Origin: Oscillospiraceae bacterium
Lineage (GTDB): Bacteria; Bacillota; Clostridia; Oscillospirales; Ruminococcaceae
Reading direction: 5' to 3'
Assembly (NCBI GenBank): GCA_014799385.1
Contig: JAAVIC010000027.1
Span: forward strand, 124,001-188,000
Length of the DNA stretch: 64,000 nucleotides
Shown: in pieces, positions 43,412 to 62,289 of the stretch
Numbering within the stretch: the first letter of the stretch is position 1
Layout of the letters: every line of letters begins with the position of its first letter
Made by a program: the position numbers and the translations under genes
Notes under the pieces: model-generated
Database searches by the model: none
Told to the model about the DNA's origin: nothing
Seen by the model: the letters and a program-made list of their open reading frames with translations, nothing else

Positions 43412-43455
43412 ATCTTTCTATTGCTGCGCTTTTTTCAAAATTATGCTATATAGGG

Positions 43456-43484
43456 TTGACATTTATAAGTACATAGTGTATAAT
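43456..43484 (+). promoter_or_regulatory. Promoter of the TIGR04076 gene
   Basis: TTGACA (43456-43461), 17-bp spacer, TATAAT (43479-43484). The block from GTTGACATTT to GTATAATAAA is close to that at 43996-44028. Confidence 0.88.
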
Positions 43485-43527
43485 AAATATCAAAGCGACA
43501 AATTAAAATTTAACGGGAGATATGAAT

Positions 43528-43933: not shown

Positions 43934-43996
43934 ACGGTTTATAAACAGTTAAAGAAACCCAAAAATCCCCACACGGAGAAAATTCCGTGCGGGGAG
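43934..43996 (+). repeat. Terminator-type hairpin, repeat copy 2
   Basis: Hairpin CCCCaCACGGA...TCCGTGcGGGG (43967-43994) with about 30 nt of flank (CGGTTTATAAACAGTTAAAG) that is almost the same as the flank of copy 3. The U-run is missing: TTGACA of the next promoter starts 2 nt after the stem. Confidence 0.8.
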
Positions 43997-44025
43997 TTGA
44001 CATTTGTAAACATATGGTGTATAAT
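43997..44025 (+). promoter_or_regulatory. Promoter of the DinB-like gene
   Basis: TTGACA (43997-44002), 17-bp spacer, TATAAT (44020-44025), directly abutting a repeat hairpin. Confidence 0.88.
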
Positions 44026-44065
44026 AAACATTAGTAAAATATACTGAAATTTGAGGTGACCCATA

Positions 44066-44730: not shown

Positions 44731-44803
44731 TCCGGTTTATTAACAGTTAAAGCAACAAAAAAATCCCCGCGCGGAGAAAATTCCGTGCGGGGGTTTTATT
44801 ATC
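44731..44803. terminator. Bidirectional terminator, repeat copy 3
   Basis: Stem CCCCGCGCGGA...TCCGTGCGGGG (44765-44792). On the plus strand GTTTTATTATC follows; on the minus strand ATTTTTTTG follows. It serves the DinB-like gene and overlaps the pheT stop codon from the other side. Flank matches copy 2. Confidence 0.85.
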
Positions 44804-47204: not shown

Positions 47205-47224
47205 CTTTACTCCTTATCTTGATA

Positions 47225-47395
47225 GCAAATCGCGAACCGTGCAAATGAGCTTTGCTCATCTGCACTAGCCGAGCGTCACGGCACACCGCTTCGCTGAGCG
47301 ACCGCCTCTGTTGCGCGGCATCCTTGCCGCGCTTTGGGCGGTCGCCCTGCGACTTCGTGTCGCGGTATGCCGCGCCGCTCGCTTTCGCGATTTGC
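47225..47395. repeat. 171-bp multi-arm palindromic element between pheS and pheT
   Basis: Perfect 12-bp terminal inverted repeats GCAAATCGCGAA / TTCGCGATTTGC. Inside, reading left to right: GTGCAAATGAGC-TTT-GCTCATCTGCAC (47239-47265); CGAGCG near 47270 pairing with CGCTCG near 47377; a long nested stem GCGACCGCC + GCGCGGCA with TGCCGCGC + GGCGGTCGC (47298-47345); and GCGAC-TTCGT-GTCGC. Together they give a multi-branched fold. It is transcribed inside the pheST mRNA and shares termini with the element at 61104. Confidence 0.75.
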
Positions 47396-47429
47396 ATGTC
47401 ACCCCAATAGGTTATAGTGAATTTGCAGC

Positions 47430-48449
47430 TTATGCCTTAAACTGCTCTAAGAAATCCATATCGTTAGCGAAGAACATTCCCATATTCGTGATACCGTATT
47501 TCAGCATGGTGATTCGCTCGATTCCGATTCCGAATGCCAGACCCGAATACACCTCAGGGTCGATTCCGCAGTTTTCAAGCACCTTTTTATTTACAACACC
47601 GCCTCCGAGAACCTCGATCCAACCCGTTCCCTTGCACAGTGAACAGCCCTTGCCGCCGCACTCGAAGCACGATACATCGACCTCCACGGACGGCTCGGTG
47701 AACGGAAAATATGACGGGCGCAGACGTGTTTTCGCTCCATCGCCGAAAATCTGCCGCACAAACTGATCAAGCATTCCTTGCAGATCGCACAGCGTAATGC
47801 CCTTATCCACGACCAGTCCCTCCATCTGCATAAACATCGGAGAGTGCGTAGCGTCGCTGTCCGAGCGGAAAACCTTTCCCGGAATCAACACCTTAATAGG
47901 CGGCTTTTCTCTATCCATAGTGCGAATCTGCCCGGGTGAGGTGTGCGTTCTCAGCAGCAGATCCTCCGTCAGCCAGAATGTATCCTGCATATCGCGCGAG
48001 GGGTGATCCTTAAGCACGTTCAACCGTGTGAAGTTGTGGTCATCGTCCTCGATTTCGGGATACTCGGCAATCTCGAAGCCCATTCCCGCAAACACCTCGA
48101 TCATCTGCTGCTTTACCAGCGTCAGCGGGTGGAGGTTGCCCGGCTTGCGCTTCAGCGCGGGCATTGTAACGTCCACAGATTCGCGCTCGTAACGCTGCTC
48201 CAGCTCGATTCGCTTGATCTCCGCCTGTTTTTCGCTGTACAATCCCTGCGCCCATTCGCGCACTTCGTTTACTGCCTTGCCGAACAGCGGTTTTTCCTCG
48301 GGCGGAACAGACTTCATTTCTTTCATCAGTCCCGAAATTACGCCCGTTTTGCCGAGGTAGCTCTGCCAGAACTCCGACAGCTGCGCGCCATTCTTAACCT
48401 CGGCGATTTTCGCCTTGACTTGTTCCTTGATTTCACTAAAATCTTTCAT
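47430..48449 (-). CDS. pheS: Phenylalanyl-tRNA synthetase alpha subunit
   Basis: 339 aa from the ATG at 48449; a longer in-frame start would extend into the T-box. N-terminal coiled coil (about 1-85), then the class II catalytic core: motif 2 [24 protein letters not shown] and motif 3 [14 protein letters not shown]. The phenylalanine-binding [10 protein letters not shown] segment is present. Expressed under T-box control with pheT downstream. Confidence 0.96.
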
Positions 48450-48462
48450 TTGTATTGTCCCC

Positions 48463-48737
48463 CAATAAAAATAAAATCCGCCCCATAATTGGGGCGGAAT
48501 AATCCGCGGTACCACCCAAATTCGAGGGATTCTCAGAATCCAATGCTCTCCCCCGCACTCTCGCGCCTTAATGCGGCGCATACAGCCATGCTTAACTCGA
48601 AACGATTTTCACACAGCGACTCCAATGCCGAAATTCACGATTGAAGCGGAGAAACGCTCACAGCCATTGACGTTCCTCTCTGAATCCGCCGAAACAAACG
48701 CTACTTATGCATATTCAACGTCATTGTGTTCATTATA
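48463..48737 (-). promoter_or_regulatory. T-box riboswitch of pheST with its promoter -10
   Basis: On the minus strand the T-box sequence GGGTGGTACCGCGGA (48503-48517) is followed by a terminator (TCCGCCCC-6-GGGGCGGA, then TTTTATTTTT, down to 48463). The same T-box bases would form the antiterminator. Upstream, stem I sequences (about 48560-48725) include GTGAATTTCGGCA, in which UUC (48630-48632) is a plausible Phe specifier codon. Uncharged tRNA-Phe would pair with both and allow readthrough into pheS. Confidence 0.88.
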
Positions 48738-48760
48738 TCACAAATTTTCGGATTTGTCAA
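48732..48760 (-). promoter_or_regulatory. Promoter of the pheST T-box transcript
   Basis: Minus strand consensus TTGACA (48755-48760), 17-bp spacer, TATAAT (48732-48737). The -35 and spacer lie inside the last codons of the EamA transporter gene, and the -10 begins right after its stop. Confidence 0.88.
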
Positions 48761-49634
48761 CCCCTTTTTTGTTGTACAGGAACATAGCCAATGCCGCACC
48801 GATTATTATCGCGTAACCGATAAAGCTCAACACATCGGGAATTTGACCCATCACGAAAAATCCCAACAGACCCGCGAAGATGATCTGCGAATAATCGTAA
48901 ATCGACACCTCACGCGCGGGAGCGTAGGAGTAGCTCGCGGTTATCGCAAACTGTCCGCCAGCAGCCGCAATTCCCGCGCCAATCAAGAACAGCCACTGCG
49001 CAAGCGTCATCGGCGAGTAGGCGAATATTATTGCGGGGGCGGCACAAAGAGTCGAGAACGCGCTGAAAAAGAACACAACATAATACCCCGCCGTTCCGCC
49101 GCTTGTCAGCTTCCGCACGAACGTATATGCCAGTCCGGCGCACGCTCCGCCGATAAATCCCGCACAGGACGGCAGCAAATCCGCGTTGGCGAAGGTCGGC
49201 TTTAATACGAACATCGCCCCGATAAATGCCGTCACAATACACAGAATCTGTATCCGATTCGGACGTTCTTTCAAAATCCAGATCGAAAACAGCACCGCGA
49301 AAAACGGCGACATCTTGTTCAGTAATGACGCGTCCGCGACCGCCAGATGTGACAACGCATAGAAATTGCACAGCATTCCGCCGAATCCGAACACCGAACG
49401 CAGTATTATTCCCGCGCGTTCACCCTTTTTCGGGAGAATATGGTGACGGTTCTTTATCATTGCAAAACTCGCTATGATCATTGCGAAAAAATTGCGGAAA
49501 AATGTCTTCTGTATCACGGGAACATCTCCCGACATTGATACACACAAATTCATCGCCGCAAAGCAAAACGTGGAGATGATTATCAAAATTATTGCCTTTG
49601 TAAGGCGGTTGTTTTGGCTTTTTATTTGTATCAC
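48738..49634 (-). CDS. EamA/DMT-superfamily transporter
   Basis: 298 aa with ten membrane helices in two EamA halves (about 12-140 and 155-290); the first half has FRNFFAMIIAS and ALSHLAVADASLLNKMSPFFAVLFSIWILKE, typical of the family. Likely exporter of amino acids, sugars or metabolites; the substrate is unknown. The start is a GTG; no better ATG exists upstream of the first helix. Its 3' end encodes the pheS promoter. Divergent from ldhA with 59 nt between starts. Confidence 0.9.
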   Translation of the reverse strand: MIQIKSQNNRLTKAIILIIISTFCFAAMNLCVSMSGDVPVIQKTFFRNFFAMIIASFAMIKNRHHILPKKGERAGIILRSVFGFGGMLCNFYALSHLAVADASLLNKMSPFFAVLFSIWILKERPNRIQILCIVTAFIGAMFVLKPTFANADLLPSCAGFIGGACAGLAYTFVRKLTSGGTAGYYVVFFFSAFSTLCAAPAIIFAYSPMTLAQWLFLIGAGIAAAGGQFAITASYSYAPAREVSIYDYSQIIFAGLLGFFVMGQIPDVLSFIGYAIIIGAALAMFLYNKKGVDKSENL

Positions 49635-49693
49635 CTCTTGAATAATTCCTCAATTTTTACGCAATATAATCAAAAATCTTCGGAGGAAAATTT

Positions 49694-50674
49694 ATGGATA
49701 AAATTGCTTTCTTTGACGCCAAGCCCTATGACAGGGAGTGGTTTGACAAAATAAATAATAACAAGTACGAAATCCACTACTACGAGAGCCGTCTGCGGCC
49801 CGAAAGTGCGCGGCTTGCCGAGGGCTGCACGGCGGTCTGCGCGTTCGTCAACGATGTGATCAACACCAAGACCATCGAAACACTTGCGGAGCTTGGCGTC
49901 AAGGTAATTCTTATGCGGTGCGCGGGGTTCAACAACATCGCGCTGTCCGCCGCCAAGGACAAGCTGAAAATTCTGCGCGTGCCCGCGTACTCGCCGTATG
50001 CCGTTGCCGAACACGCAATGGGACTGATTCTCGCGCTTAACCGCAAGATTCCCCGCGCGTATATCCGCACCCGCGACTTCAATTTCAGCCTGAACGGACT
50101 TACGGGATTCGACCTTCACGGCAAGACCGCCGGAATTATCGGTACGGGAAAAATCGGGCGCGTGTTCATCGACATCTGCCGAGGGTTCGGTATGGACGTT
50201 ATCGCGTATGACCCGTTCCCCGTTGAGAACAGCGGTATTCGGTACGTTTCGCAAGAGGAGCTGTTCAAACGCTCGGACATTATTTCGCTTCACTGTCCGC
50301 TCACCCGCGAAACGCGCTACATCATCGATGAACAGGCAATCGCGCTGATGAAAAAGAGCGCACTTATCGTCAACACCTCACGCGGACAGCTAATTGACAG
50401 CGAGGCGTTGCTCTCTGCGCTGAACGATAAGCGAATCGGCGGCGCGGCTCTGGACGTTTATGAGGAAGAAAGCGGCTTGTTCTTTGAGGACAATTCGGAC
50501 AAAATCGTCACCGATGAAGTGATTTCCCTCCTCGTTTCCCGTCCGAACGTCATTATCACCTCGCACCAGGCGTTCCTCACCGAGGAGGCACTCCGCAACA
50601 TCGCCGAAGTCACCCTTAAAAACTTCGATGATTTTCTCAATGGAAAAGAGCTTGTCAACGAAATTAAATCATGA
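49694..50674 (+). CDS. ldhA: D-2-hydroxyacid dehydrogenase, D-lactate dehydrogenase-like
   Basis: 326 aa. NAD-binding GTGKIG (about 150-155), substrate-binding RCAGFNNI loop, catalytic Arg in NTSRGQLIDSEAL, Glu in LDVYEEESGLFFEDNSD and His in TSHQAFLT. The FFEDxSD segment and overall pattern are those of fermentative D-lactate dehydrogenases (LdhA/DdH). It would reduce pyruvate to D-lactate to recycle NADH. GGAGG precedes the ATG, and a TATAAT at 49665 is a possible -10. Its stop directly abuts the mutS2 stop from the other strand. Confidence 0.9.
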   Translation: MDKIAFFDAKPYDREWFDKINNNKYEIHYYESRLRPESARLAEGCTAVCAFVNDVINTKTIETLAELGVKVILMRCAGFNNIALSAAKDKLKILRVPAYSPYAVAEHAMGLILALNRKIPRAYIRTRDFNFSLNGLTGFDLHGKTAGIIGTGKIGRVFIDICRGFGMDVIAYDPFPVENSGIRYVSQEELFKRSDIISLHCPLTRETRYIIDEQAIALMKKSALIVNTSRGQLIDSEALLSALNDKRIGGAALDVYEEESGLFFEDNSDKIVTDEVISLLVSRPNVIITSHQAFLTEEALRNIAEVTLKNFDDFLNGKELVNEIKS

Positions 50675-53053
50675 CTATTTCAAGTCAACAACGGTAACGC
50701 CAGCTTCACCCTCTCCATATGCGCCAAGCCGAAAGCTCTTCACTGCGGGATTTCTCCTTAAAGCTCTGTGGATAGCCTCGCGGAGCGCGCCCGTGCCTTT
50801 GCCGTGAATTATCACCACCTGTGACAATCCCGACATTATCGCGCCGTCCAAAAAACGCTCCATTTCCATTACACCGTCATCGCCCATATACCCGCGAATA
50901 TCCAGCTCCATTCCGCCGCGGCGGTTGAGGTTTGACGTTACGGATTTCTTTACTTTCCCCGCTCCGTTTTGCTGCGGGGATTTTTGTTTCTCGATCAAAC
51001 GCAGATTCTTGGCATTTGTTTTAACTTTCATAGAACCCGTCTGCACATAGCATTGCCCCGACATATTCGGAACGGTCAGCAGCGTTCCCTCGCGGTTGGT
51101 ATCGGCAAGCCGCACGGAATCCCCCTGCTTGAACGGGCGCGGAGGGACATAACTTTCCACCCTGCGCTCCACCACGGGATTCACATCGTCCTGCATACGG
51201 TTCAGGCGGCTCGTAGTCTTGGATTTCGCCTCAGACAAGCCCTTTCGCAGTTCCTCCTTGTCCTTGGTCTTTTTCAGCTCCGTAAGCTCGTCAATCAGCC
51301 TGTTTGATTCTGCGCGGGTCTGCTCGATAATGGACAACGCGCGCTGTCTTGCGTTTTCAAGCTCCTTTTCCTTTTGCTGCTCCAACTCGGAGAGTTTTTG
51401 TTTTAGCTCGCTTTCGGTAAGTTTAGCGTTTCTCTCGGATTTCGCAACGCTCTCACGCAGTTCCTCAAGCTCCTTGCGCGATTGCTCCAGCCGCTCGATA
51501 ACTTGCTCAAATCGGCGGTTTTCGGAGCTTACAAGACTCTCAGCGCGGGAAATCACATAATCGCTCATTCCCAACTTTTTGGTAATCGCGAACGCGTTTG
51601 ACTTGCCCGGAACTCCCACTATCAGACGATATGTGGGTTTAAGCGTTTCCACGTTAAACTCACAAGACGCGTTCTCCACACCGTCCGTTTCCAACGCGAA
51701 CATTTTAACCTCCTGATAGTGCGTGGTCGCAAGCACCTTCGCGCGATAGCCCTTTAGCTGTTCGAGAATCGATACGGCGAGAGCCGCGCCCTCTACGGGG
51801 TCTGTTCCGCTGCCAAGCTCGTCAATCAGCACCAGCGAGTTTTCGTCTGCGCTGTCTAGGATTTTAATCACGTTGGTCATATGCGAGGAGAACGTGGAAA
51901 GGCTCTGCTCGATGCTCTGCTCGTCGCCGATGTCCACAAAGATACGCTCAAAGCAGCCAATAACGCTGCCGTCACCTGCGGGAATCATCAATCCGCACTG
52001 CGTCATCAGCGTCAGTAAACCCACCGTCTTGATTGCCACGGTTTTACCGCCCGTGTTTGGACCCGTGATAATCAGGCAATCATAGTCCCCTCCGATTTCC
52101 ACGGTTATCGGCACAGCAAGGTCGCGGTCGAGCAAGGGGTGACGAGCGTTATTCAGCACAACCTTGGGAGTGTTTACGATTTTAGGCGTAACCGCGCGCA
52201 TTTTCGCGCCAAGATTCGCTTTCGCGAAGTACAGCTCCAGAATCCCCGCAAGACGGAAATTCTCCGCGATTGCCTCGGAATTTCCGCCTATTTCCGCAGA
52301 CAGTTCCCGCGTGATTCGCTCGATTTCAGCCTGTTCGCGCGATTTAAGCACGCGAATCTCGTTGTTCGATTCAACCACGTCCATCGGCTCGATAAAGAAC
52401 GTCTGCCCCGTTGCCGATGTATCGTGCACCAATCCCGGAACATCGCCCTTATGCTCGCTGCGGACGGGCACTACATACCGCCCGTCACGCATCGTAACCA
52501 CCGCGTCTTGGAGATAGGAGCGCGTGTTTTTGTTCTTTATCATACTGTCCAGCTTGTCGCGGATATTCTGCCCTTGCCGCGCGATTCTGCGGCGGATTTG
52601 CGCCAGTTCCGCGCTTGCCGCGTCCGACATTTCCTCCTCGGAAATTATCGCCTCGGAGATTCGACGCTCCAAGGGTTTCAGCGGCACAAGTCCACGGAAA
52701 TACTCCGCGAGCGTGTTCTCAATGTTCTCACACTGCGAGTACCAATCGCACAACGCGGCTGTTTCGCGCAATACCGCCGCCGCGTCCAACAGCTCCCGAA
52801 ATGACAGCATAGAGCCTGTCTCCGCGCGCTTCAGACTGCCCGAAATATCCTTTATTTTCCGAAACGCGGGAGTTCCGAATTTTGCGGACAGCGTAAACGC
52901 GTCGTCCGTTTTTTTCAGCTCCTCGGTTATGGTTTCATAGTCCGTTACGGGCTTGATGTTCAAAGCCTTTTCACGACAGGAGTCGCTGACGGTCTGTTCC
53001 GCAAGCAGCTCCAGAATTTTATCCAATTCCAATTTCTTATAAAATTTGTTCAT
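50675..53053 (-). CDS. mutS2: MutS2 family ATPase / ribosome-collision factor
   Basis: 792 aa from the ATG at 53053 (AGGTG upstream; a TTG two codons earlier is less likely). MutS-like core and clamp (about 1-310), ATPase with Walker A GPNTGGKT, Walker B LVLIDELGSGTDP and the following ATTHY, a long coiled coil (about 510-620), a KOW-like segment and a C-terminal Smr domain (LDIRGYMGDDGVMEMERF... IIHGKGTGALR). In Firmicutes MutS2/RqcU splits collided ribosomes; anti-recombination roles are also known. Convergent stop with ldhA, no gap. Confidence 0.95.
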   Translation of the reverse strand: MNKFYKKLELDKILELLAEQTVSDSCREKALNIKPVTDYETITEELKKTDDAFTLSAKFGTPAFRKIKDISGSLKRAETGSMLSFRELLDAAAVLRETAALCDWYSQCENIENTLAEYFRGLVPLKPLERRISEAIISEEEMSDAASAELAQIRRRIARQGQNIRDKLDSMIKNKNTRSYLQDAVVTMRDGRYVVPVRSEHKGDVPGLVHDTSATGQTFFIEPMDVVESNNEIRVLKSREQAEIERITRELSAEIGGNSEAIAENFRLAGILELYFAKANLGAKMRAVTPKIVNTPKVVLNNARHPLLDRDLAVPITVEIGGDYDCLIITGPNTGGKTVAIKTVGLLTLMTQCGLMIPAGDGSVIGCFERIFVDIGDEQSIEQSLSTFSSHMTNVIKILDSADENSLVLIDELGSGTDPVEGAALAVSILEQLKGYRAKVLATTHYQEVKMFALETDGVENASCEFNVETLKPTYRLIVGVPGKSNAFAITKKLGMSDYVISRAESLVSSENRRFEQVIERLEQSRKELEELRESVAKSERNAKLTESELKQKLSELEQQKEKELENARQRALSIIEQTRAESNRLIDELTELKKTKDKEELRKGLSEAKSKTTSRLNRMQDDVNPVVERRVESYVPPRPFKQGDSVRLADTNREGTLLTVPNMSGQCYVQTGSMKVKTNAKNLRLIEKQKSPQQNGAGKVKKSVTSNLNRRGGMELDIRGYMGDDGVMEMERFLDGAIMSGLSQVVIIHGKGTGALREAIHRALRRNPAVKSFRLGAYGEGEAGVTVVDLK

Positions 53054-53234
53054 AATCAATCACCTGCAAAGTGTTTCTATCAAACAATCCAACGTGTTTT
53101 TCAATACCCCAAATCACGTAAAACCGCTCTGTGAGCCGATTTAGCAGCTATTGAAAAACACCCTGGAAAACGCTGCGATTTTCGGTCAAATTCAACGGCA
53201 CTCAAAACAGCTCTGAGAAACGTTTTGAGCAACT
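53054..53234. other. Structured gap between mutS2 and MmcQ gene
   Basis: 181 nt without a gene. A perfect 13-bp inverted repeat GTGTTTTTCAATA (53094-53106) / TATTGAAAAACAC (53149-53161) brackets a 42-nt segment, and CTCAAAAC/GTTTTGAG (53202-53229 region) forms a second stem with a 12-13 nt loop. Neither has a U-run. It would form part of the mutS2 leader if transcription starts beyond it; no good promoter was seen. Confidence 0.6.
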
Positions 53235-53897
53235 TCACCTTGCCAAAATCCAGCTTTCGTCAATACGTTCGCACAACTCATCGAACGGGATCGAGCCGTC
53301 CAGAATCATTGTGTACCAATGCTTTTTGTTCATATGCCAGCCGCCAAAGTAACATTTTCCGTCTACGAGAGATTCCATCTGTTCGGGCGGCAGCCGTAAA
53401 TCGATAATCTCCGCAACCTCATCGGACTTCAGTCCCAGTTTTCGTAATGATACGGTAAGCACCGCCGCGAACCACTTGCCCGTGTCCGCGCGCCGCCACA
53501 CCGCGTTATCCGAAAACTTCTCCCACAGGAACTCCAACTCGCACCCGTATTTTTCACGGACGTACTCTATCAGCTGCTTTGTCATCTCCGACTTGAACAC
53601 ATCTGGAACAAAACACCTGTCCGCGATTTCGTTCAGCGTTTGTTCATACTCCGCGCGGACTTGCCCCACGAAACTGCCCGCACTGTCCGTCAAATGGAGC
53701 GTGTATTCGCCGACTTCAGGTTCTGTCACCTTTGCGGATATTTTGCCGCTCTCGGTTATCGTCACTGTCATTTCAAAACCGCTCTCCGAAAGGGTTCGCG
53801 CGTATTTATAGGATTTGCCGCGCTTGACAAATCCATACTCCGACAGCTTGGAAAAATCCGCCTTGCGGTTCTTGAAAATTGCGTTAATCGCGTTCAT
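53235..53897 (-). CDS. MmcQ/YjbR-family protein
   Basis: 220 aa. The C-terminal half has the family pattern: FSDNAVWRRADTGKWFAAVLTV, then DLRLPPEQMESLVDGKCYFGGWHMNKKHWYTMILDG and a terminal ESWILAR. The fold is a CyaY-like/double-wing domain thought to bind DNA; function is unknown. The N-terminal half (about 1-90) is an additional beta-rich domain beginning MNAINAIFKNRKADFSKL, longer than minimal MmcQ. An AGGAGG-type site precedes the ATG. Confidence 0.85.
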   Translation of the reverse strand: MNAINAIFKNRKADFSKLSEYGFVKRGKSYKYARTLSESGFEMTVTITESGKISAKVTEPEVGEYTLHLTDSAGSFVGQVRAEYEQTLNEIADRCFVPDVFKSEMTKQLIEYVREKYGCELEFLWEKFSDNAVWRRADTGKWFAAVLTVSLRKLGLKSDEVAEIIDLRLPPEQMESLVDGKCYFGGWHMNKKHWYTMILDGSIPFDELCERIDESWILAR

Positions 53898-53990
53898 TCA
53901 ATATCCTCCTATGCTTATTATCGGGAAGATTATCCTTTTCATAGAGAGTTCCTTCCTGCTACCTACTTAAATCGCTTTTGCTCCAACACG

Positions 53991-54647
53991 CTAACAAAAC
54001 GATTTGTAAAAACCATCTTCGTTTTCAAATTCGCTTTCATTTGTAAAAATGGTGCTACTGCCTTTACATATTATAGTAACTGTGTATCTTGGAATATTGA
54101 CGTTCTCTTTGCAATAACAGTAAAAATCGTACAGCCACCCTAAAGATTTTGGGTTTGTGCTTGAATCGTTGTTGTGTAATAGAACTACAAAATCTACACT
54201 ACCATCAAATTGTGAAATGTTTGCCTTGGGATTGTTTCTAAAGAACTTCTGCAAATCTGAGGCAATGTAATTAAATTTTGCAGTAATGTTTCTCGATTCT
54301 TCAAACGGCTTGATATAGGTATTGTAGAGTTGATATTCCGCAAATGCCTTCCAATAAAAATCATTTGCAATTCGACCATGCTCGGCAAAAATTGGAAACC
54401 TTATCCCATCCTGCTCAAAAACAAATTGATCATGTCCGGGATTTCCAAGATTAATTTGTGTTGTACGATAGTATGACCGTATAAATTTGGCGTCGGGATA
54501 ATTTACATTTACATATTCAAAAACAGCACGTTTGTTTTTTCGAGCCTCTTTCTGCCATGGAAAGAGAAGGTTTGCATTGAGAATCAGCACAATTCCAACC
54601 GCTGCTAACACTGATAACAAAATTTTAATTAAAACCGTTTTCTTCAT
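53991..54647 (-). CDS. Membrane-anchored hypothetical protein, AT-rich
   Basis: 218 aa, not recognised. One N-terminal membrane helix (about 7-28), then an extracytoplasmic region rich in aromatic residues and Asn (YVNVNYPDAKFIRSYYRT, DFYWKAFAEYQLYNTYIKPF). It has no lipobox and no Cys pattern. Base composition is more A/T-rich than the neighbours, hinting at recent acquisition. AGGAGG precedes the ATG. A stand-alone gene between MmcQ and the acetyltransferase. Confidence 0.7.
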   Translation of the reverse strand: MKKTVLIKILLSVLAAVGIVLILNANLLFPWQKEARKNKRAVFEYVNVNYPDAKFIRSYYRTTQINLGNPGHDQFVFEQDGIRFPIFAEHGRIANDFYWKAFAEYQLYNTYIKPFEESRNITAKFNYIASDLQKFFRNNPKANISQFDGSVDFVVLLHNNDSSTNPKSLGWLYDFYCYCKENVNIPRYTVTIICKGSSTIFTNESEFENEDGFYKSFC

Positions 54648-54669
54648 ATGCCCTCCTGTTATGTAACAT

Positions 54670-55314
54670 TCAGCCGCGTTTATTCAACATTCTCCTCAAC
54701 TCGGATTTCACATTTTCAAGGTCACTTGATGTCAGCAGCGGAATCAGCGCGTTGATTTCCTCGATTTCCTTATCCCACCAACGGAACTCCAGCAGCAGAG
54801 AAGTAAGCTCCTCGTCAAACCTCCGACGAATCAGCCGCGCGGGATTACCAGCGACAATCGTGTACGGCTCCACATCGCTCGCGACCGTGCTGTTCAAGCC
54901 GATAATCGCGCCATCGCCGATATGAACGCCGGGCAAAATCGTCACGTTCTGTCCAATCCACACATCGTTTCCCACAACGGTGTCGCCCTTGAGCGGCAAA
55001 TCCGAGAGCGAAGGTACATCCTCGTCCCATCCCTCGAAGATGTAAAACGGGAACGTTGAAACAGCGTTCATCTGATGATTCGCGCCGTTCATCACGAAAT
55101 TCACTCCTGCAGCAATCTGACAGAATTTTCCTATAATCAGCTTGTCACCATTAAAGTCATAGTGATGTGTAACGTGCGACTCAAAATCGCGGTCGCTGAA
55201 ATAGGTGAAATCTCCAACGGAAATGTTCGGATTCGTTATCGTGGGCTTGACATAAGTCACCATATCGCTGTTCGGCGCGGGGAATATATTATTCGGATTC
55301 GGAATTATTTTCAT
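54670..55314 (-). CDS. Vat/XAT-type hexapeptide O-acetyltransferase
   Basis: 214 aa left-handed beta-helix protein. FVMNGANHQMNAVSTFPFYIF with His80 is the active-site region of xenobiotic acetyltransferases (CatB and Vat enzymes), followed by hexapeptide repeats VVGNDVWIGQNVTILPGVHIGDGAIIG and AGNPARLIRRRF. Family members acetylate chloramphenicol or streptogramin A, but many chromosomal ones have unknown acceptors, so resistance should not be assumed. The start overlaps the recO stop (ATGA). Confidence 0.88.
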   Translation of the reverse strand: MKIIPNPNNIFPAPNSDMVTYVKPTITNPNISVGDFTYFSDRDFESHVTHHYDFNGDKLIIGKFCQIAAGVNFVMNGANHQMNAVSTFPFYIFEGWDEDVPSLSDLPLKGDTVVGNDVWIGQNVTILPGVHIGDGAIIGLNSTVASDVEPYTIVAGNPARLIRRRFDEELTSLLLEFRWWDKEIEEINALIPLLTSSDLENVKSELRRMLNKRG

Positions 55315-56096
55315 ACTGTACCTCCGACAAGCATTTTATAGTACTCCAGTGCCGTGAACGTCCGCTCGGTGCGGTAAAGGAAGTAGTCCTCGGCAATGGC
55401 GGCGAGCTGTTTTTCGGGTTCGCCGCTTATTGTGAACTTAAACGCGCTCTCTATGGGGGAAAACACAATGTTTCGCATCGCGTGGAGCGTTTCATAATAC
55501 AGGTTCACACGGATTCCGTCATAGTCGGGATTCAGGCAGTCCGCACACATAAGCTGACCCTTTCGCGGGAGGAAATACATTCCGTTGTCGCAGGTGTAGC
55601 GTCCGCAGTTTTCGCACGCGACCAAGTTGGGCGAAAAGCCCAGAGCCGCGCTGTAACGCAGCTCAAATGCCGATTTCACCGCCGCAAGAGAACGATTTGT
55701 TTTTTCGGTGTTCAACGTTTCGTACATTGCGATTGCCATAAATCGCACAAGGCTGTCGTGATTGTCTTCGAGCTGATTCTGTTCCGAAGGTGTGCAAAAT
55801 CTCACGCTCTGCGCGAAATATGACGCGAGAGCCAGCTTTTCAATGTCGCTGCCCAATCCGTGAAAGCTGAACTTCGGTTTCGCGGAATTTACCGTGTAGC
55901 GCCCCTTGGATTTATTCAGACAGAACGTTGCATACGAAAATATTGCCGCCGAGGACATCAGGGAACTATTCAGCTTTTTGACGCCGTGCGCAGAGGCTTC
56001 CACAATGCCCTGCTCGTCTGTAAGGATGTCGATAAAGCAACTGTTTTCGCCGACTCCTCGCCGACCGACAACAATTCCGTCATATGTCACAAGCAT
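55311..56096 (-). CDS. recO: DNA repair protein RecO
   Basis: 261 aa. N-terminal OB-fold (YDGIVVGRRGVGENSCFIDILTDEQGIVEASAHGVKK), helical middle, and a zinc site with two Cys pairs (CENCGRYTC and CADC), then HAMRNIVFSP of the C-terminal helix bundle. It loads RecA with RecR in gap repair. GAGGTGA precedes the ATG. It follows the mgsA terminator and is translationally coupled to a Vat-like acetyltransferase, an unusual partner. Confidence 0.93.
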   Translation of the reverse strand: MLVTYDGIVVGRRGVGENSCFIDILTDEQGIVEASAHGVKKLNSSLMSSAAIFSYATFCLNKSKGRYTVNSAKPKFSFHGLGSDIEKLALASYFAQSVRFCTPSEQNQLEDNHDSLVRFMAIAMYETLNTEKTNRSLAAVKSAFELRYSAALGFSPNLVACENCGRYTCDNGMYFLPRKGQLMCADCLNPDYDGIRVNLYYETLHAMRNIVFSPIESAFKFTISGEPEKQLAAIAEDYFLYRTERTFTALEYYKMLVGGTV

Positions 56097-56122
56097 TGTT
56101 TCACCTCATTCCGTATAACGCG

Positions 56123-56145
56123 AAAAATGCGCCCGATTGGGCGCA
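56123..56145 (-). terminator. Terminator after mgsA
   Basis: Minus strand TGCGCCC-AATC-GGGCGCA stem followed by TTTTTCG, about 25 nt after the mgsA stop. It closes the mre-pbp2-minD-mgsA block. Confidence 0.85.
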
Positions 56146-56170
56146 CTTTCCCCGCAATAAACGCGGATTT

Positions 56171-56566
56171 TTACCGCATATACTCGCGCCAGTCGAGGTC
56201 GCCGCGCTCCAGCGCGTGAATCAGCGCCTCGGCAGTGGCAATGTTCGTAGCAACGGGAATATTATGCACATCGCATAGCCGCAGAATGTTGATGTCGTTC
56301 GGCTCATGAGATTTCGCGTTAAGCGGGTCACGGAAGAAAAGCAGCAAATCAATCTCGTTACAGCTAATGCTTGACGCAAGCTGTTGGTCGCCGCCCTGTG
56401 AGCCGCTCAAAAAACGCTGAATGTGCAGTCCCGTAGACTCGGAAACCAGCTTACCTGTTGTTCCCGTGGCACAAATGTTGTATCTGCTCAGAATGCCGCA
56501 ATAGGCAATACAAAATTGAACCATAAGCTCCTTTTTGGAATCATGGGCGATCAGAGCAATGTTCAT
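56171..56566 (-). CDS. mgsA: Methylglyoxal synthase
   Basis: 131 aa. Family motifs IALIAHDSKKELMVQF, ATGTTGKLV (phosphate-binding), and SGSQGGDQQLA with the catalytic Asp, then FFRDPLNAKSHEPND. It converts dihydroxyacetone phosphate to methylglyoxal, relieving phosphate limitation in glycolysis. It lies 25 nt after the MinD-like gene, the common clostridial position at the end of the mre/min cluster. Confidence 0.95.
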   Translation of the reverse strand: MNIALIAHDSKKELMVQFCIAYCGILSRYNICATGTTGKLVSESTGLHIQRFLSGSQGGDQQLASSISCNEIDLLLFFRDPLNAKSHEPNDINILRLCDVHNIPVATNIATAEALIHALERGDLDWREYMR

Positions 56567-56591
56567 ATACCATACCCCCTGTTCGTGCGGT

Positions 56592-57329
56592 TTAATTGAT
56601 CTTTATCGTAAGCGGAACGTCCTGTCCGTCAACACGCTTGGCAATGGCAGTGTATGCCTTGTATCCGCCGCAATTGGGCGGAAGCGCCTCACCTTTCGCG
56701 CCGCAGATCTTGATGTTCATATCCTCGGGAACCACACCTATAAGCGGGATTCCCACGCTGTCCATAACCTCGTCAAGATCGTAAAGAATATCCTCTTTCT
56801 TGAAATTCTGACTTACCTTATTGATAACCAGACGCTGGTTAGTGCAATTTTTCACATACAGGAAGTCCGAAAGCATTTGACCATCGCGAACGCAGACGGT
56901 ATCGGGTGTGGTGACCATCAAAATCAAGTCTGCCGCTTTGATTACGCTGAACACGCTGCTTCCGACACCCGCAGTGTCGATGATTATGTAGTCAAAGTGC
57001 TCACGCATTTCCTCGCACACGCCCATAATCTTTTCGGGATTTATATCTATAAACGGGTTTCTGGTCGCGCACACAAGGTACAGGTTCTCAACTCTCTCAA
57101 CCTTGGTTGTTGCCGTCAAAATATCAATTTTCCCCTCAAGGTACTCGCCGATGTCGTGCTTAACTTTATCTTTAATGCCAAGCATTATATCCAGGCAGCG
57201 AAGACCGAAGTCCAACTCTACCAATAGCGTCTTATGCCCCAACTGAGCAAGACCTGTCGCAACATTGGCAGATGTGGTGGATTTTCCCGTACCACCCTTG
57301 CCTGCTGTAACCGCAATAATTTCTGACAT
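56592..57329 (-). CDS. minD: MinD/ParA-like ATPase without a recognisable C-terminal membrane helix
   Basis: 245 aa. Deviant Walker A GKGGTGKST (10-18) with the signature Lys, an LVELDFGLRCLDIMLG switch segment and Walker B DYIIIDTAGVGSS place it in the MinD/ParA class. True MinD ends in a short basic amphipathic helix; here the end is AIAKRVDGQDVPLTIKIN, which does not look amphipathic-basic. MinC and MinE genes are absent from this cluster. Function as division-site MinD is therefore likely but not certain. AGGGG precedes the ATG. Confidence 0.8.
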   Translation of the reverse strand: MSEIIAVTAGKGGTGKSTTSANVATGLAQLGHKTLLVELDFGLRCLDIMLGIKDKVKHDIGEYLEGKIDILTATTKVERVENLYLVCATRNPFIDINPEKIMGVCEEMREHFDYIIIDTAGVGSSVFSVIKAADLILMVTTPDTVCVRDGQMLSDFLYVKNCTNQRLVINKVSQNFKKEDILYDLDEVMDSVGIPLIGVVPEDMNIKICGAKGEALPPNCGGYKAYTAIAKRVDGQDVPLTIKIN

Positions 57330-57506
57330 ATTCTACCCCTCTCTGTTCCAAAATTTCGGAACAATACAGCAATGCCATGATTGATTAAAATCATCTATAT
57401 CTATTTTAGCACAAAAAGTCCAATATGAAAAGGGCTTTTTTCCATATTCACAAATATTTGTGAGTTTTTTCGATTTTAAGAGGTTAATTTTGTGCAGTTT
57501 GCACAA
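57330..57506. other. Gap between pbp2 and minD
   Basis: 177 nt. A weak minus-strand promoter for minD (extended -10 TGCTAAAAT near 57403-57411, poor -35) and a perfect palindrome TCACAAATATTTGTGA (57448-57463) are visible. The palindrome has a T-run only on the plus strand, where no gene precedes it, so it may be an operator rather than a terminator. Confidence 0.45.
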
Positions 57507-59570
57507 TCACAAAATACTTGCAGGCTTATTATCCTCGTTGTAATGAGTTGAAATTGTTCCGTTTGCGTAGGCATTTATGATATTTGTGCCAATAATCTTT
57601 GCCATTGTTCCCTTTTCGGTCATTACCGCAAACGCGATTTCGGGATCGTCCGCCGGATAAAACCCAACTACGGCACTGTTGAATACCTTCGGCGCGGATT
57701 GCGGAGAACCCGTCTTCATCGCAACATTTTCGTGTCCTACGCCGATGTAATCGTTGCTGTTGACATACCCCGCACCCGATATGGAAACATAGCTGTCCGC
57801 AGAAACGAGCTTCATTCCCTCGCGAATATTCTCCATATACACGTCCATATTCGGTTCGTTGGAGAAATCCTCGGCGATTACGGTTTCTTTGTCGTACTTC
57901 TTCTCGGTGAAGTTGTAATCGTAAACGCTCTTGACAATGTGCGGCTCGTATCTCACACCCTTGTTCGCGATAGTCATCGCTACTACCGCGAGATGCATCG
58001 GTGTAACGGCGGTTTCACACTGACCGATTCCCGCCTGAACCACGTCACCCTCGTTCCACGTAAGACCCAGACTCTCATACAGCTCCAATGAGCTCATTTG
58101 CCCGGTCGCCATCGGAAGGTCGAATCCCAGATCCTTGCCGATTCCGTATCTGCCCGCCCATTTCGCGAGATTGCTGATACCCATACGGCGCGCGGTTTCG
58201 TAAAAGTAAATATTGCATGATTTGCGCAATCCCCCGCGGACATCAAGACTTCCGTGCGCACCAAGACAAGTAGGCAGGTAGCTTGGCGCGAAATATGTGT
58301 AGACCCCGCCGCAGCTTATTCCGGTTTCGGGGGTAATTACACCCTCCGCAAGACCGGCGGTGGCAGTGATGGTTTTGAACGTTGAACCGGGGCGGTACTC
58401 ACCAAACAGCGCACGGTTCAGCAGCGGCGCGCCCTCGCGGTTCAGCACGTCTATATAATCCTTTGCCTCGTCATTGATGTCAAAGGTTGGGTAGCTTGCC
58501 GCAGCGAGAACCCCTCCCGTTTTGCAGTCCAGCACCACACACGCGCCGGCAGTCGAGCCTTCCTGACCGTAGAGGCTCTTGCAGGAATCAGTATTAGTGT
58601 AGTCGATGTGGTATTTCAGCGCGTCCTGTACCAACTTCTGGAGGTCGCTGTCGATTGTAAGCATAACGGAGTTTCCCGCCTTGGGCTGGGTTGTTACCTC
58701 GTCTTTTATTGCCATTCCATCGGCATTACGGGTAATGGAGCGCACTCCGCGAATACCGCGCAGTTCACTTTCCAACGCGTATTCCACACCATCGCGCCCG
58801 ATAATATCATTCAGATTGTATCCCTTATCTTTAAGCTCGTTGTATTGTTCATCGGAAATAGAACCCATTGTTCCCCGAAGATGAGGGGCGATTGTTCCGT
58901 CAAGGTATTCGCGCTCCCAACTTTCGGTGATGTCTATCCCCGTAAGCAGCGAGGCAAGCTCTTTAAGCTCCAACACAGTCCCCTCGGAAATTCCGCTTGC
59001 CAATACAAACTCATTTCTCGCAGAGAAATCCATACGGTCCATTTCATATCGAACACCGGCGATATACCGTTTCATCTGCTCGTCATATTTATCATCGATT
59101 TTATAGGTTTTGTAGAGCTGAAATATACAATTATCCACAGTCGCGTAACTGCCCACATTAAGACGCTTTTTCAGCTCCGCAACCTCGGATTCCTTTCCGG
59201 AGAGGAACGAATACGGCTGAGTTTTGGTGATTGGAAGACTGTCGTTCCACTTTTCACCGTTCTTGCGGAGAACCGTCAAAACACGGTAAATAATAGTGTT
59301 TTGCGTTCCATATTCGAGAAAGCTGTCTTGAAGATTGACATTATACGTGATTTTACTTGTATTCAGTACCTTGCCGTTGCAGTCAACGATCTGCCCGCGC
59401 ACAGCGTCGATTTCCTGGTCGACAACGTTCGTTTCGCGGGTCATTTTCAAGTACTTTTCACCGTCTACGATTTGCGTCTGAAGCAGCTTGATTCCGCAGA
59501 AAAATGCCGCAACAACAACTATTGCCGCCAGTGTTATTGAGCGGATATAAGGAGAGATTTTCTGAAACAC
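57507..59570 (-). CDS. mrdA: Class B penicillin-binding protein 2 (elongation transpeptidase)
   Basis: 687 aa. One N-terminal membrane helix (about 10-30), dimerisation domain with RGQIVDCNGKVLN, and the transpeptidase domain with SxxK at Ser396 (PGSTFK), SCN and KTGS near 660 residues from family comparison. It crosslinks lateral-wall peptidoglycan with the MreBCD complex. The start is a GTG with GGAGGA 8 nt upstream, 4 nt after mreD. A mid-domain insertion (about 120-210) is longer than in E. coli PBP2, as is common in clostridia. Confidence 0.93.
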   Translation of the reverse strand: MFQKISPYIRSITLAAIVVVAAFFCGIKLLQTQIVDGEKYLKMTRETNVVDQEIDAVRGQIVDCNGKVLNTSKITYNVNLQDSFLEYGTQNTIIYRVLTVLRKNGEKWNDSLPITKTQPYSFLSGKESEVAELKKRLNVGSYATVDNCIFQLYKTYKIDDKYDEQMKRYIAGVRYEMDRMDFSARNEFVLASGISEGTVLELKELASLLTGIDITESWEREYLDGTIAPHLRGTMGSISDEQYNELKDKGYNLNDIIGRDGVEYALESELRGIRGVRSITRNADGMAIKDEVTTQPKAGNSVMLTIDSDLQKLVQDALKYHIDYTNTDSCKSLYGQEGSTAGACVVLDCKTGGVLAAASYPTFDINDEAKDYIDVLNREGAPLLNRALFGEYRPGSTFKTITATAGLAEGVITPETGISCGGVYTYFAPSYLPTCLGAHGSLDVRGGLRKSCNIYFYETARRMGISNLAKWAGRYGIGKDLGFDLPMATGQMSSLELYESLGLTWNEGDVVQAGIGQCETAVTPMHLAVVAMTIANKGVRYEPHIVKSVYDYNFTEKKYDKETVIAEDFSNEPNMDVYMENIREGMKLVSADSYVSISGAGYVNSNDYIGVGHENVAMKTGSPQSAPKVFNSAVVGFYPADDPEIAFAVMTEKGTMAKIIGTNIINAYANGTISTHYNEDNKPASIL

Positions 59571-59574
59571 GTTA

Positions 59575-60195
59575 TTATTCCTCCGGATTGTTCTCCAATG
59601 CCGATTCCTCGGCGTTCTGCGCGGATTTTTCGAGCCTCTGCTGTTCTTTTGGCATGAGCTTTTTGCGAATCACCGCAACAAGCCAATATATGGGAATCGA
59701 AAACAGTACCGCTCCTCCGTATTCGGGAAGTATCACGCGGACGAACGAAATCCCGCTCTGGGAGCGCTCCCATACCCAATGCAGGAAAAGCATATCCATT
59801 CCCGCCATCACAAAGCAAACTATTAAATTCATCACAAAGTGCGACAGGGTGTTGGCTTTTACCCAAAACCGCGTTGAAAGCGAGATTATCGGACACGCAA
59901 TCAACAGCCACAGCGATGAAAATCCGAGTAGTGTTACGCCGTTGGCGATGTCTATCATAAGTCCGCAGAATACACCGAAAATCCCGGCGGCAAGATCGCC
60001 CTCGCGCATTGCTACGGCGGTCGCCAACGGGATTATCAAAAGCGGACAAAATCCACGGATAAGCGGATTTCCCATAAAAAGGTAAAATATCAGCAAAACC
60101 GCAGAAAACAGCACCCACCGCAGAACCGCGCGGATTGCCGCCGCGCGCGTCCGCGAGATGCGATGCTTGCGGTATACGCTCCAATTATTCTTCAT
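59575..60195 (-). CDS. mreD: Rod shape-determining protein MreD
   Basis: 206 aa from the ATG at 60195 (GAGG upstream; a TTG at 60216 would overlap mreC). Five or six membrane helices, with GIFGVFCGLMIDIANGVTLLGFSSLWLL, the family's central signature. The C-terminus is charged (KEQQRLEKSAQNAEE). It bridges MreC and the elongation complex. It lies 7 nt after mreC. Confidence 0.88.
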   Translation of the reverse strand: MKNNWSVYRKHRISRTRAAAIRAVLRWVLFSAVLLIFYLFMGNPLIRGFCPLLIIPLATAVAMREGDLAAGIFGVFCGLMIDIANGVTLLGFSSLWLLIACPIISLSTRFWVKANTLSHFVMNLIVCFVMAGMDMLFLHWVWERSQSGISFVRVILPEYGGAVLFSIPIYWLVAVIRKKLMPKEQQRLEKSAQNAEESALENNPEE

Positions 60196-60202
60196 ACGCG
60201 CC

Positions 60203-61069
60203 TCAATCGTCGTCAATCTCGAACGGGATTCCCTTGCCTGTAAAGTCGGTGACTATAAATGCCGATGTAACCGACCTCACGTCCTCGGCGGGCTTTATCA
60301 GCGCGTGCTTGGACAGACCGTTCGGGTCGTCATAGACCTCCGTCACCGTACCGACAAGAATATCTCCGGGGAACAACCCGCTTTTACCCGAGGTGAAGAT
60401 TATATCTCCCTCGCGAATATCAGCGTCCTTGAAGATTCCGCTCATCAAGCACAGCCCTTTTTCGGCGGAGCTTAGGTCGTTTTCGATAACTCCGGTTGCC
60501 TTTGAACGCATTGTGTACACACCCACATTAATGTGCGGGCTGAGAATCGTTGTGACCTTAGCGTAATTATCCGCGATGGTCGTGATCCTGCCAACCAAGC
60601 CCTTTGACGTCATTACGGGGTCATTGAGCTGAAGTCCGTCGCTGCTGCCCGAGTTGATCGTAAATCCGCCGTAGAGGTCGTTTGTGTTGTGAGCGATTAC
60701 ATTACACGGTTCGGAAAACATAAAATCCTCGTGCTTTTCTTTAAGCTCCAACATCTCGCGCAGACGCTCGTTCTCCTTTTTAAGCTCCTCATAATCCAAA
60801 GTATGCTTGTACATCTCGGTAAGCTGCGCGGAAAGCTCATCGTTCTGCGACTTGTATTTGTCGGCGTTTACAATTTTGTCGATAAGACCCGAAACGCCGT
60901 CCGAAACCGCGTTCGCGGCGGTCACAAATGGGTAGGTCAAAGTGTTCAGGATCTGCTCGGGTGTGGTGGACTGCCCCGCCGCTACCGCGACATACGTCAT
61001 CAAACCAAGCAGCAGTGCGCCAATGCCCAGAAGTATCTTGAATTTAACGCTGTGAAAAAATTCTTTCAT
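60203..61069 (-). CDS. mreC: Rod shape-determining protein MreC
   Basis: 288 aa. N-terminal membrane helix (about 10-30), a coiled coil (about 65-110, DELSAQLTEMYKHTLDYEELKKENERLREML), and two beta-barrel domains with the signature GLVGRITTIADNYAKVTTILSPHINV. MreC scaffolds PBP2 outside the membrane. The start ATG has no clear ribosome site (TTTAAGAT only); the region upstream is a palindromic repeat that separates it from mreB. Confidence 0.92.
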   Translation of the reverse strand: MKEFFHSVKFKILLGIGALLLGLMTYVAVAAGQSTTPEQILNTLTYPFVTAANAVSDGVSGLIDKIVNADKYKSQNDELSAQLTEMYKHTLDYEELKKENERLREMLELKEKHEDFMFSEPCNVIAHNTNDLYGGFTINSGSSDGLQLNDPVMTSKGLVGRITTIADNYAKVTTILSPHINVGVYTMRSKATGVIENDLSSAEKGLCLMSGIFKDADIREGDIIFTSGKSGLFPGDILVGTVTEVYDDPNGLSKHALIKPAEDVRSVTSAFIVTDFTGKGIPFEIDDD

Positions 61070-61074
61070 ATCTT

Positions 61075-61113
61075 AAATTTGCAAACCGCATTATCTCAAA
61101 TTTGCAAACCGCA
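61075..61113. repeat. Direct repeat upstream of mreC
   Basis: The 16-mer AAATTTGCAAACCGCA occurs at 61075-61090 and 61098-61113, 23 bp apart. The second copy forms the left end of the palindromic element at 61104-61204. This looks like a partial duplication of the element end. Confidence 0.75.
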
Positions 61114-61204
61114 AACCGTCAACATTGCCTTTCGGCAATGTTGACTATCCGAACACCTTGTCACACTCAAAGAGTGTGACAAGGTACTCGATTTTGCGGT
61201 TTGC
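61104..61204. repeat. 101-bp palindromic element between mreB and mreC
   Basis: Terminal inverted repeats GCAAACCGCAAA / TTTGCGGTTTGC (perfect 12 bp). Two perfect internal hairpins: GTCAACATTGCC...GGCAATGTTGAC (61118-61145) and CCTTGTCACACTC-AAA-GAGTGTGACAAGG (61156-61184). It fits a three-way junction. Termini and junction bases match the element at 47225, while the arms differ in sequence. It lies inside the mre operon. Confidence 0.78.
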
Positions 61205-61269: not shown

Positions 61270-62289
61270 TTAATAAATCGTTTCGTCCTCACTGAGCACA
61301 TCTTCGAGCTTATCAATATTTTCCAGAACCTTGCCCGTGCCGTCCGCAACACAGTCCAGCGGACGCTCGGCGATCTTGACAGGCATTCCCGTTTCCTCGT
61401 GGATCAATCTATCCAACCCGCGCAGCAACGCTCCGCCGCCCGCAAGCATAATTCCGCTTTCGATGATGTCCGCGGCAAGCTCGGGCGGGCACTTCTCCAA
61501 TGTGGTCTTTACCGCGTCGATTACGTGTGAAAGCGGCTCGGAAAGCGCATCGCGGATTTCCTCGGAGGTGATGGTGATGTTCTCGGGCAAGCCGTTGAGC
61601 AGATTTCTGCCCTTGATGTCCATTACAGGCTCGTTTTCATCGGTCTTGAACGCAGAACCTATGCCGGTTTTGATATTTTCGGCAGTGCGTTCACCAACAA
61701 GAAGATTGTATTTCTTCTTGATATAGTTGATTATCGCGTTATCGAACTCATCGCCCGCAACCCTTACAGAGCGCGCAGTTACGATACCGCCGAGCGAGAT
61801 AATCGCGACCTCGGAGGTTCCGCCGCCAATATCAACGATCATACTGCCCATCGGATCCGCAACGGGAAGTCCCGCGCCGATTGCCGCTGCCATAGGCTCC
61901 TCAATGATGGACACTCGCTTTGCGCCTGCCTGCTGTGCCGCTTCCTTAACGGCTCTGCGCTCTACCTCGGTTACACCGGACGGAATGCAGATGATTACAC
62001 GCGCCTTGCCCTTTCCCTTAAGTGCCTTTTTGATAAACTGCGACAGCATAATGCTTGTCATATCAAAGTCCGCGATAACGCCGTCCTTAAGCGGTCTGAC
62101 GGCAACGATCGACCCGGGTGTACGACCGATAACGTCCTTCGCCTCCTGACCGACATAGCGAACCTGTCCCGCCTTTTTGTCTACCGCAACAACAGACGGC
62201 TCGCGGATTATAATTCCCTTACCGCGCATATAAACCAACGTATTCGCCGTGCCGAGGTCGATTCCGATATCCCTGCTCATTCCAAACAT
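61270..62289 (-). CDS. mreB: Rod shape-determining actin-like protein MreB
   Basis: 339 aa. Actin-fold motifs: phosphate 1 [13 protein letters not shown], phosphate 2 [17 protein letters not shown], adenosine loop [13 protein letters not shown], and [15 protein letters not shown]. It polymerises under the membrane and guides lateral wall synthesis, so the cell is probably rod- or ovoid-shaped. GGAGG precedes the ATG, and a promoter lies about 70 nt upstream. First gene of the mre block. Confidence 0.97.

Follow-up and report, generated by a model that had tools for sequence, protein, structure and literature searches.

What is recognised in the attC sites of integrons is the shape, not the sequence, of a folded single strand of DNA, one of the two strands being preferred. 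The BOX repeats of Streptococcus pneumoniae, in the portions of PMC3049150 that deal with their organisation, are short and modular, number about a hundred per genome, carry paired terminal modules with variable inner modules, have a strong predicted RNA fold, are inserted into one another and are frequent only in close relatives. REP sequences (the TnpA-REP system) are high-copy palindromic repeats, thought to be non-autonomous and moved by a transposase in the part of PMC8266576 that treats them. Here we describe two elements in a 64,000-nucleotide stretch of an Oscillospiraceae bacterium genome (contig JAAVIC010000027.1, positions 124,001 to 188,000; hereafter the window). We consider that they are probably copies of a genus-specific, non-autonomous interspersed repeat, the identity of which lies in the folded shape of the sense strand and which installs a structured 5' leader with its own Shine-Dalgarno (SD) sequence.

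The repeat family and its predicted fold

A preliminary description of the window had pointed out two branched palindromes, both oriented alike on the minus strand, one between pheS and pheT (element 1) and one between mreB and mreC (element 2; Table 1). Both are present where it placed them, and open reading frames and Pfam domains bear out the operon setting. The left motif GCAAA[T/C]CGC[G/A]AACCGT and its right-hand partner occur exactly in both elements, the inner arms are self-complementary, and the two differences in the closing stem are compensated (T-A against C-G at position 6, G-C against A-T at position 10). Overlooked were the three-way junction, the SD leader within the repeat and a palindrome nested in one arm of element 1.

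The two elements are members of a large family. The left motif occurs seven times in the 2.69-Mb genome and its reversed pattern not at all, and the flank TTATTTTAATAGCAAA, with at most two mismatches allowed, is found 112 times and its reversed pattern 7 times; thus, the window elements are not chance arrangements. A covariance model was trained on 61 of the 63 compact copies found in this genome, the sister species (G041, taken on the basis of identical places to be one assembly with G053 and CAMWMN01) and G020 (taken on the same basis to be CAMNXF01); the other two, one own and one from G020, were omitted from the alignment (A1) for no particular reason. In an own-genome sample of 460,682 bases (contig C1, most of C27 and the window) the model gave 77 matches, of which 18 are weaker opposite-strand matches to the same copies, leaving 59 elements. 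Copies in relatives, which the preliminary description had proposed to seek with such a model, are plentiful: the model matched in 15 of the 43 genus genomes (counting this one), and with up to 85 candidates scored per genome it found between 1 and at least 85 copies in each. With up to 150 candidates scored, G050 has 99 copies, G022 has 64 and G052 has 46. No match was found outside the genus in 196 further genomes of the order, 99 of the family (one of them a member of this genus) and a class-wide set of 290, in shallow scans (18, 35 and 12 candidates scored per genome, respectively) that low-copy families could escape. Two low-scoring matches, L183 (G019) and L197 (G013), do not show the standard junction. 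Repeats conserved mainly in shape can evade ordinary repeat searches, as a 20-base leader pattern had exact copies in this genome and in only one of 40 relatives (24 of them from the same genus), against the 15 of 43 genus genomes reached by the covariance model.

We predict that each unit folds as a three-way junction. In the orientation of the downstream gene, it consists of a left flank (about 25-35 nt), the 5' arm of the closing stem P1 (12-13 bp), arm P2, a linker A, arm P3, a linker GG, the 3' arm of P1 and the leader. The first three pairs of P2 are xGC with GCx, and its 3' side has one or two bulged bases, mostly purines. The leader of the repeat is TTTAAATAAGGAG, which can be written as the pattern TT[TA]A[AG]ATAAGGAG. 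Across species the junction letters are conserved and the stem letters are not. An alignment of 26 rows, drawn from 13 genomes, has the linker A in 24 of them, the first linker G in all 26 and the second in 23; the closing G-C pair of P3 is conserved in 24 rows and the last P1 pair, A-T, in 26. P1 is 12 bp in both window elements, and 55 of 56 own stems cannot be extended outward beyond this length; in other species, sampled here and below mostly through the top-scoring elements of each genome, it is 12 bp in 67 of 94 stems and 13 bp in 27. The sequence of P1 is highly variable between species (e.g., GCAAAATACGCA, GAAATTTCAAAA, AAAATTTGCGAA and AAATTTTTCGCA). The predicted minimum free energy of 27 own copies ranges from -54.9 to -85.6 kcal/mol. 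As expected for an interspersed repeat, the copies are many and dispersed, mostly below 200 bp and bounded by terminal inverted repeats; a few with nested palindromes reach about 200 bp.

The elements match no Rfam family; the preliminary description had likewise recognised no known RNA family or MITE. At gathering thresholds, Rfam matched only a T-box leader (see below) in the whole window and nothing on the elements. With relaxed thresholds the best match on element 1 was Mahella-1 (17.7 bits against a cut-off of 70.7), and a search of 11 further loci returned one unrelated weak match.

The P2 arms of three elements (element 1, L038 at 9921-9968 and L049 at 3496-3543) hold the nested palindrome G[C/T]GACCGCC ... 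GGCGGTC[G/A]C with an inner hairpin, and a reversed version could be recognised by eye in L015. Upstream of many elements lie degenerate units, each about 45 bp long (..GTTATAACCAAAAGCAAGTTATTGGTGATTAGT; e.g., L049 at 3226-3445 on the plus strand and L047 at 17089-17308 on the minus strand). These units of the left flanks are sometimes tandem and sometimes placed behind long G/C-rich repeats.

Covariation and base pairing

Among 44 elements chosen by their flank only (a few with misplaced left borders, all counted), 288 of 352 inner P1 positions are complementary; when the right arms were shuffled 10,000 times, the count averaged 218 and never exceeded 249. In alignment A1, 95.2% of the cells pair, against 29-44% with partners slid; the covariation score of this alignment is 0.440 and falls to 0.156 on shuffling. 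The P1 figures of A1 are partly circular (GCAAA-type rows were picked with stem pairs 6-10 complementary), and the right arm of P1 is misaligned in four rows from G020. The cross-species alignment scores 0.659, against 0.169, and 41 of its 44 pairs are changed on both sides somewhere; it was fitted to the model, and model-based alignments lean to structure, which the flank-only count does not. Pairing is thus retained across species with differing stem sequences. Compensatory change of the kind sought in structured RNAs, which the preliminary description had proposed to look for in the closing stem, lies far above the shuffle and slide controls, and most stems are paired.

Recounts of P1 on model matches, which also lean to structure, gave 651 Watson-Crick, 9 G-U, 7 A-C and 5 other pairs in this genome (56 of 59 elements, three dropped for a poor stem) and 1088, 16, 6 and 18, respectively, in other species (94 of 101, seven dropped). 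A claim that G-U pairs are absent was abandoned, having been derived from A1 rows preselected for complementarity. Among copy pairs (not independent of one another), the closest show 12 one-sided and 6 two-sided stem changes, and those with at most nine differing bases show 71 two-sided and 40 one-sided changes. We conclude that ordinary mutation and paired change both occur, because one-sided changes prevail in the closest pairs and two-sided ones in more distant pairs.

Covariation by itself is no proof of selection on RNA, because the pairing is nearly all Watson-Crick, template switching can compensate changes and turnover between species is high. Caution is warranted more generally, given that strong covariation in repeats might stem from element turnover or template switching as well as from RNA function. 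The preliminary description had read the stems as the trace of selection on a folded RNA or a cruciform DNA. The covariation agrees with this, but a symmetric cruciform is not supported, as the sense strand is predicted to fold better and the loops are strand-biased.

Strand preference and loop types

By RNA energies, the sense strand is predicted to be the more stable one in 54 of 57 copies from this genome and the sister species, and in 84 of 92 copies from other species. By DNA energies the corresponding counts are 52 of 57 and 90 of 92 (the 92 may include two opposite-strand matches). The 59 own elements have 96 hairpin tips with a loop of three or four bases, and 79 of these are triloops. 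Here GNA loops outnumber TNC, the reverse-complement class, by 37 to 3, and AAA outnumbers TTT by 22 to 4; the 101 elements from other species have 28 GNA against 6 TNC and 19 AAA against 12 TTT. The word GCGCAGC occurs 29 times in own elements, against once reversed (52 against 3 in other species), and GCGAAGC 14 times against 3 (69 against 4); for GCAAAGC the own elements show a bias (23 against 5) that is absent from other species (17 against 16). In the rest of the own sample, hairpins include 8 GNA and 6 TNC loops among 67, and the terminator-like control yielded 11 hairpins, too few for a comparison of loop types. GNRA tetraloops, which are common in and preferred by RNA, make up only 2 of the 17 own-element tetraloops. 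In the relevant part of PMC4686876, ultra-stable DNA mini-hairpins are described that have GNA or GNNA loops with a closing G-C pair. The loop types therefore lean to single-stranded DNA, without deciding the matter, since purine loops could also serve RNA. The same arms are found with loops in either orientation, a hint of inversion at the DNA level.

The same two-way loops could be the product of passive palindromes, i.e., insertions with perfect arms kept by DNA template switching, and with neither function nor dedicated mobility. Template switching maintains hairpins and makes compensated multi-base stem changes, and is presented as a mutational process in RNA genes in the portion of PMC8794818 concerned with it. 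Chimeric and nested copies would be consistent with such an origin, as would the almost purely Watson-Crick pairing of own P1 stems, in which G-U pairs (9) are near A-C pairs (7) in number. We nevertheless judge it improbable. A 12-13 bp stem with a fixed junction recurs in copies from 13 genomes, the loops are strongly biased to one strand, there are up to 99 copies per genome, and the nearest pairs differ mostly by one-sided changes (12, against 6 two-sided).

The Shine-Dalgarno leader and placement before genes

The pattern [AT]A[AG]ATAAGG[AG]G has 39 sites in the own sample, of which 35 lie within 12 nt after a stem end (TTTGC, TTTGT or CTTGC) and the remaining four are in degraded elements, as judged by eye. 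The SD is part of the repeat, because all 39 leader sites tie to an element, and in this genome it travels with the repeat. An SD with a start codon within 32 nt follows 38 of the 59 own elements, compared to 159 of 20,000 random places (this supersedes a looser null based on the start codon, 1443 of 4000 random places); for 7 of the 59 the next feature downstream is another element, in tandem. Among 101 elements sampled from other species, an SD and start codon follow 58, including 18 of 20 in G050.

Very stable predicted folds within operons could also indicate transcription terminators or integron-like attC recombination sites, and attC sites likewise keep structure over sequence. TTTT lies within 2 nt after P1 in 29 of 94 copies from other species, as would suit a terminator, but in only 6 of 56 own copies and in neither window element. 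The window elements are located between ordinary operon genes, and the leader runs on into an SD and ATG in 38 of 59 cases. Both readings are very improbable, and we set them aside on the basis of this context.

Turnover, empty sites and arm exchange

The sister species shares about 84-95% of bases with this genome in long aligned stretches. Distinct sites were counted by hand, given that the script classes held duplicates, in a sample centred on filled sites. At 17 distinct start sites where the element is intact in both species, 13 differ in the inner P1 allele (one of them because a second copy lies between) and 4 have the same allele. Five further sites, one labelled a relic by the script, are filled in one species only; both flanks align in three of these and the upstream sequence does not in two. 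At the clearest empty site (L053 compared to L097) the left flank is missing together with the element. Thus, relatives have empty sites, as expected for an interspersed repeat. Arm exchange, raised in the preliminary description, was also identified. Of 13 recurrent arms (at least two occurrences, last 85 nt), 6 combine with at least two closing-stem alleles, although two of the 13 look like P2 arms picked up by the script.

The main rival explanation is a cis-regulatory RNA, the junction of which would bind a protein or ligand controlling the translation of a large regulon, so that the copies would be selected leaders. The location directly before an SD and start codon, the conserved junction letters with free stems and the sense-strand bias are all consistent with this, as is the excess of G-U (26) over A-C (7) among one-sided changes of near relatives (non-independent pairs). 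Less easily reconciled with selected leaders are the empty orthologous sites and the replacement of alleles between species at about 90% DNA identity, the tandem copies (7 of 59), and the many copies in G022 and G006 that do not lead into a gene. Besides the bulge, the A and the GG, there is no conserved unpaired core. We regard regulation of this kind as possible but doubtful as the primary explanation; it and the interspersed repeat could both hold if copies were co-opted.

In the sister species, L148 (G041) contains a relic near 1500 from which the whole junction is gone. Here GGTGA runs into TTTGCTATTTAGATAAGGAG, and the flank and SD leader are kept.

Proposed mode of spread

If the elements are copies of an interspersed repeat, as we favour, units would appear, vanish and be replaced quickly. 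They would be tolerated best, or inserted preferentially, directly before start codons, where a unit would supply the SD of the gene, set in AU-rich sequence downstream of a highly stable fold. Spread may occur via a trans-acting recombinase or transposase that reads the fold, as single-stranded DNA or as RNA. In cis, the fold might keep the translation start apart from upstream sequence and protect it from decay, and copies would persist where they are least harmful or somewhat useful, i.e., before the start codon. A repeat that carries an SD, with different copies replacing one another at the same start sites in sister species, would offer a natural and fast means of altering translation initiation. 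A more specific version, in which the unit is a mobile ribosome-binding-site cassette, recognised by shape, spreading as folded sense single-strand DNA (a three-way junction whose GNA and GNNA loops are those of ultra-stable DNA mini-hairpins) and rewiring translation by its own SD leader, seems to us unlikely.

Several observations weigh against the interspersed-repeat interpretation. Element 2 is without an SD, either lost or never present. An SD and start codon follow only 3 of 13 sampled copies in G022 and 3 of 10 in G006, genomes in which many copies finish in TTTAAATAA, without an SD; because of these, the SD association is not universal. Some P1 stems are decayed or chimeric, and copies in other species have the TTTT runs noted above. 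One empty site (window, minus strand, about 32,757 from the 5' end) keeps a short piece resembling the left flank and may represent a loss. Comparison of filled and empty sites yielded no clear target-site duplication, with at most an AT repeat at one of them. Finally, no mobilising enzyme was identified in searches that covered only Y1 transposase (Y1_Tnp; 0 matches in this genome) and reverse transcriptase (RVT_1) in the 43 genomes.

Reverse transcriptase genes are encoded in 17 of the 43 genus genomes, including 9 of the 15 that carry the family. This enzyme was rejected as a general mobiliser, as none was found in the copy-rich G050, G022, G006 and G052. The own genome has a reverse-transcriptase domain with one internal TGA (G000:C1:145207-146025).

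Genes and other features of the window

The coordinates of both elements and of their neighbouring genes are provided in Table 1. A T-box leader (Rfam RF00230, 101.4 bits) was identified upstream of pheS at 48487-48727 on the minus strand, so that in the pheST operon pheS is preceded by a T-box and pheT by a junction element.

Other repeats are also present in the window. Promoter-like blocks (GTTGACATTT ... TATAATAAA) are repeated about 540 bp apart, at 43455-43518 and 43996-44059, and three terminator-like repeats lie near them, at 43342, 43932 and 44730. A 300-bp direct repeat with 81% identity (41361-41660 and 42737-43036) perhaps represents tandem paralogous genes.

Table 1. Elements 1 and 2, their parts and the adjacent genes, in window positions. 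Arms and linkers with an empty last column were read directly from the sequence.
Feature	Position	Strand	Remarks
Element 1, three-way junction between pheS and pheT	47225..47395	-	span from closing stem to closing stem; 108.9 bits for the model match at 47210-47395
Element 1, closing stem P1, 5' arm GCAAATCGCGAA	47384..47395	-	perfect 12-bp arm
Element 1, arm P2 (starts AGC, finishes GGCT, holds nested palindrome)	47267..47383	-	
Element 1, palindrome nested in P2	47298..47345	-	regular expression: 3 copies in the 460,682-base sample, all within elements
Element 1, junction linker A	47266..47266	-	A in 24/26 cross-species rows
Element 1, arm P3 (GTGCAGATGAGC-AAA-GCTCATTTGCAC)	47239..47265	-	
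Element 1, junction linker GG	47237..47238	-	first G in 26/26, second G in 23/26 cross-species rows
Element 1, closing stem P1, 3' arm TTCGCGATTTGC	47225..47236	-	
Element 1, SD leader TATCAAGATAAGGAG, part of the repeat	47210..47224	-	pheT ATG begins at 47204
pheT, downstream of element 1	44799..47204	-	Pfam B3_4, tRNA_synthFbeta, B5
pheS, upstream of element 1	47430..48581	-	Pfam tRNA-synt_2d; mechanical open reading frame, true start possibly further in
Element 2, three-way junction between mreB and mreC	61104..61204	-	77.4 bits for the model match at 61087-61204
Element 2, closing stem P1, 5' arm GCAAACCGCAAA	61193..61204	-	
Element 2, arm P2 (starts ATC, finishes GGAT)	61147..61192	-	
Element 2, junction linker A	61146..61146	-	
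Element 2, arm P3 (GTCAACATTGCC-GAAA-GGCAATGTTGAC)	61118..61145	-	
Element 2, junction linker GG	61116..61117	-	
Element 2, closing stem P1, 3' arm TTTGCGGTTTGC	61104..61115	-	
Element 2, degraded leader with repeated stem end, without SD	61070..61103	-	mreC ATG begins at 61069
mreC, downstream of element 2	60203..61069	-	Pfam MreC
mreB, upstream of element 2	61270..62289	-	Pfam MreB_Mbl

Comparison with known systems

No published account of such a repeat family was found in the open PubMed Central literature. Unlike attC sites, the elements described here are branched and sit before genes, and the two window sites show no sign of mobile cassettes. Hairpins maintained by template switching, as far as PMC8794818 describes them, differ from this dispersed multi-copy family with its conserved junction. 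The high copy number and palindromic nature are shared with REP sequences, but these are simple palindromes in the account drawn on from PMC8266576, in contrast to the three-way junction found here, and no Y1 transposase domain was found in this genome.

We place the elements among the bacterial interspersed palindromic repeats. The nearest described elements that we found are the BOX repeats, judging from those portions of PMC3049150 that describe them. The resemblance is in the modular build with paired ends, the strong predicted fold, the nesting and the restriction to close relatives. BOX repeats are, however, defined by the sequence modules boxA, B and C and are over-represented between convergent genes (PMC3049150, same portions). 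The present family is set apart by its description: it conserves the fold, leaves the sequence of the closing stem free and mostly ends in an SD at a start codon.

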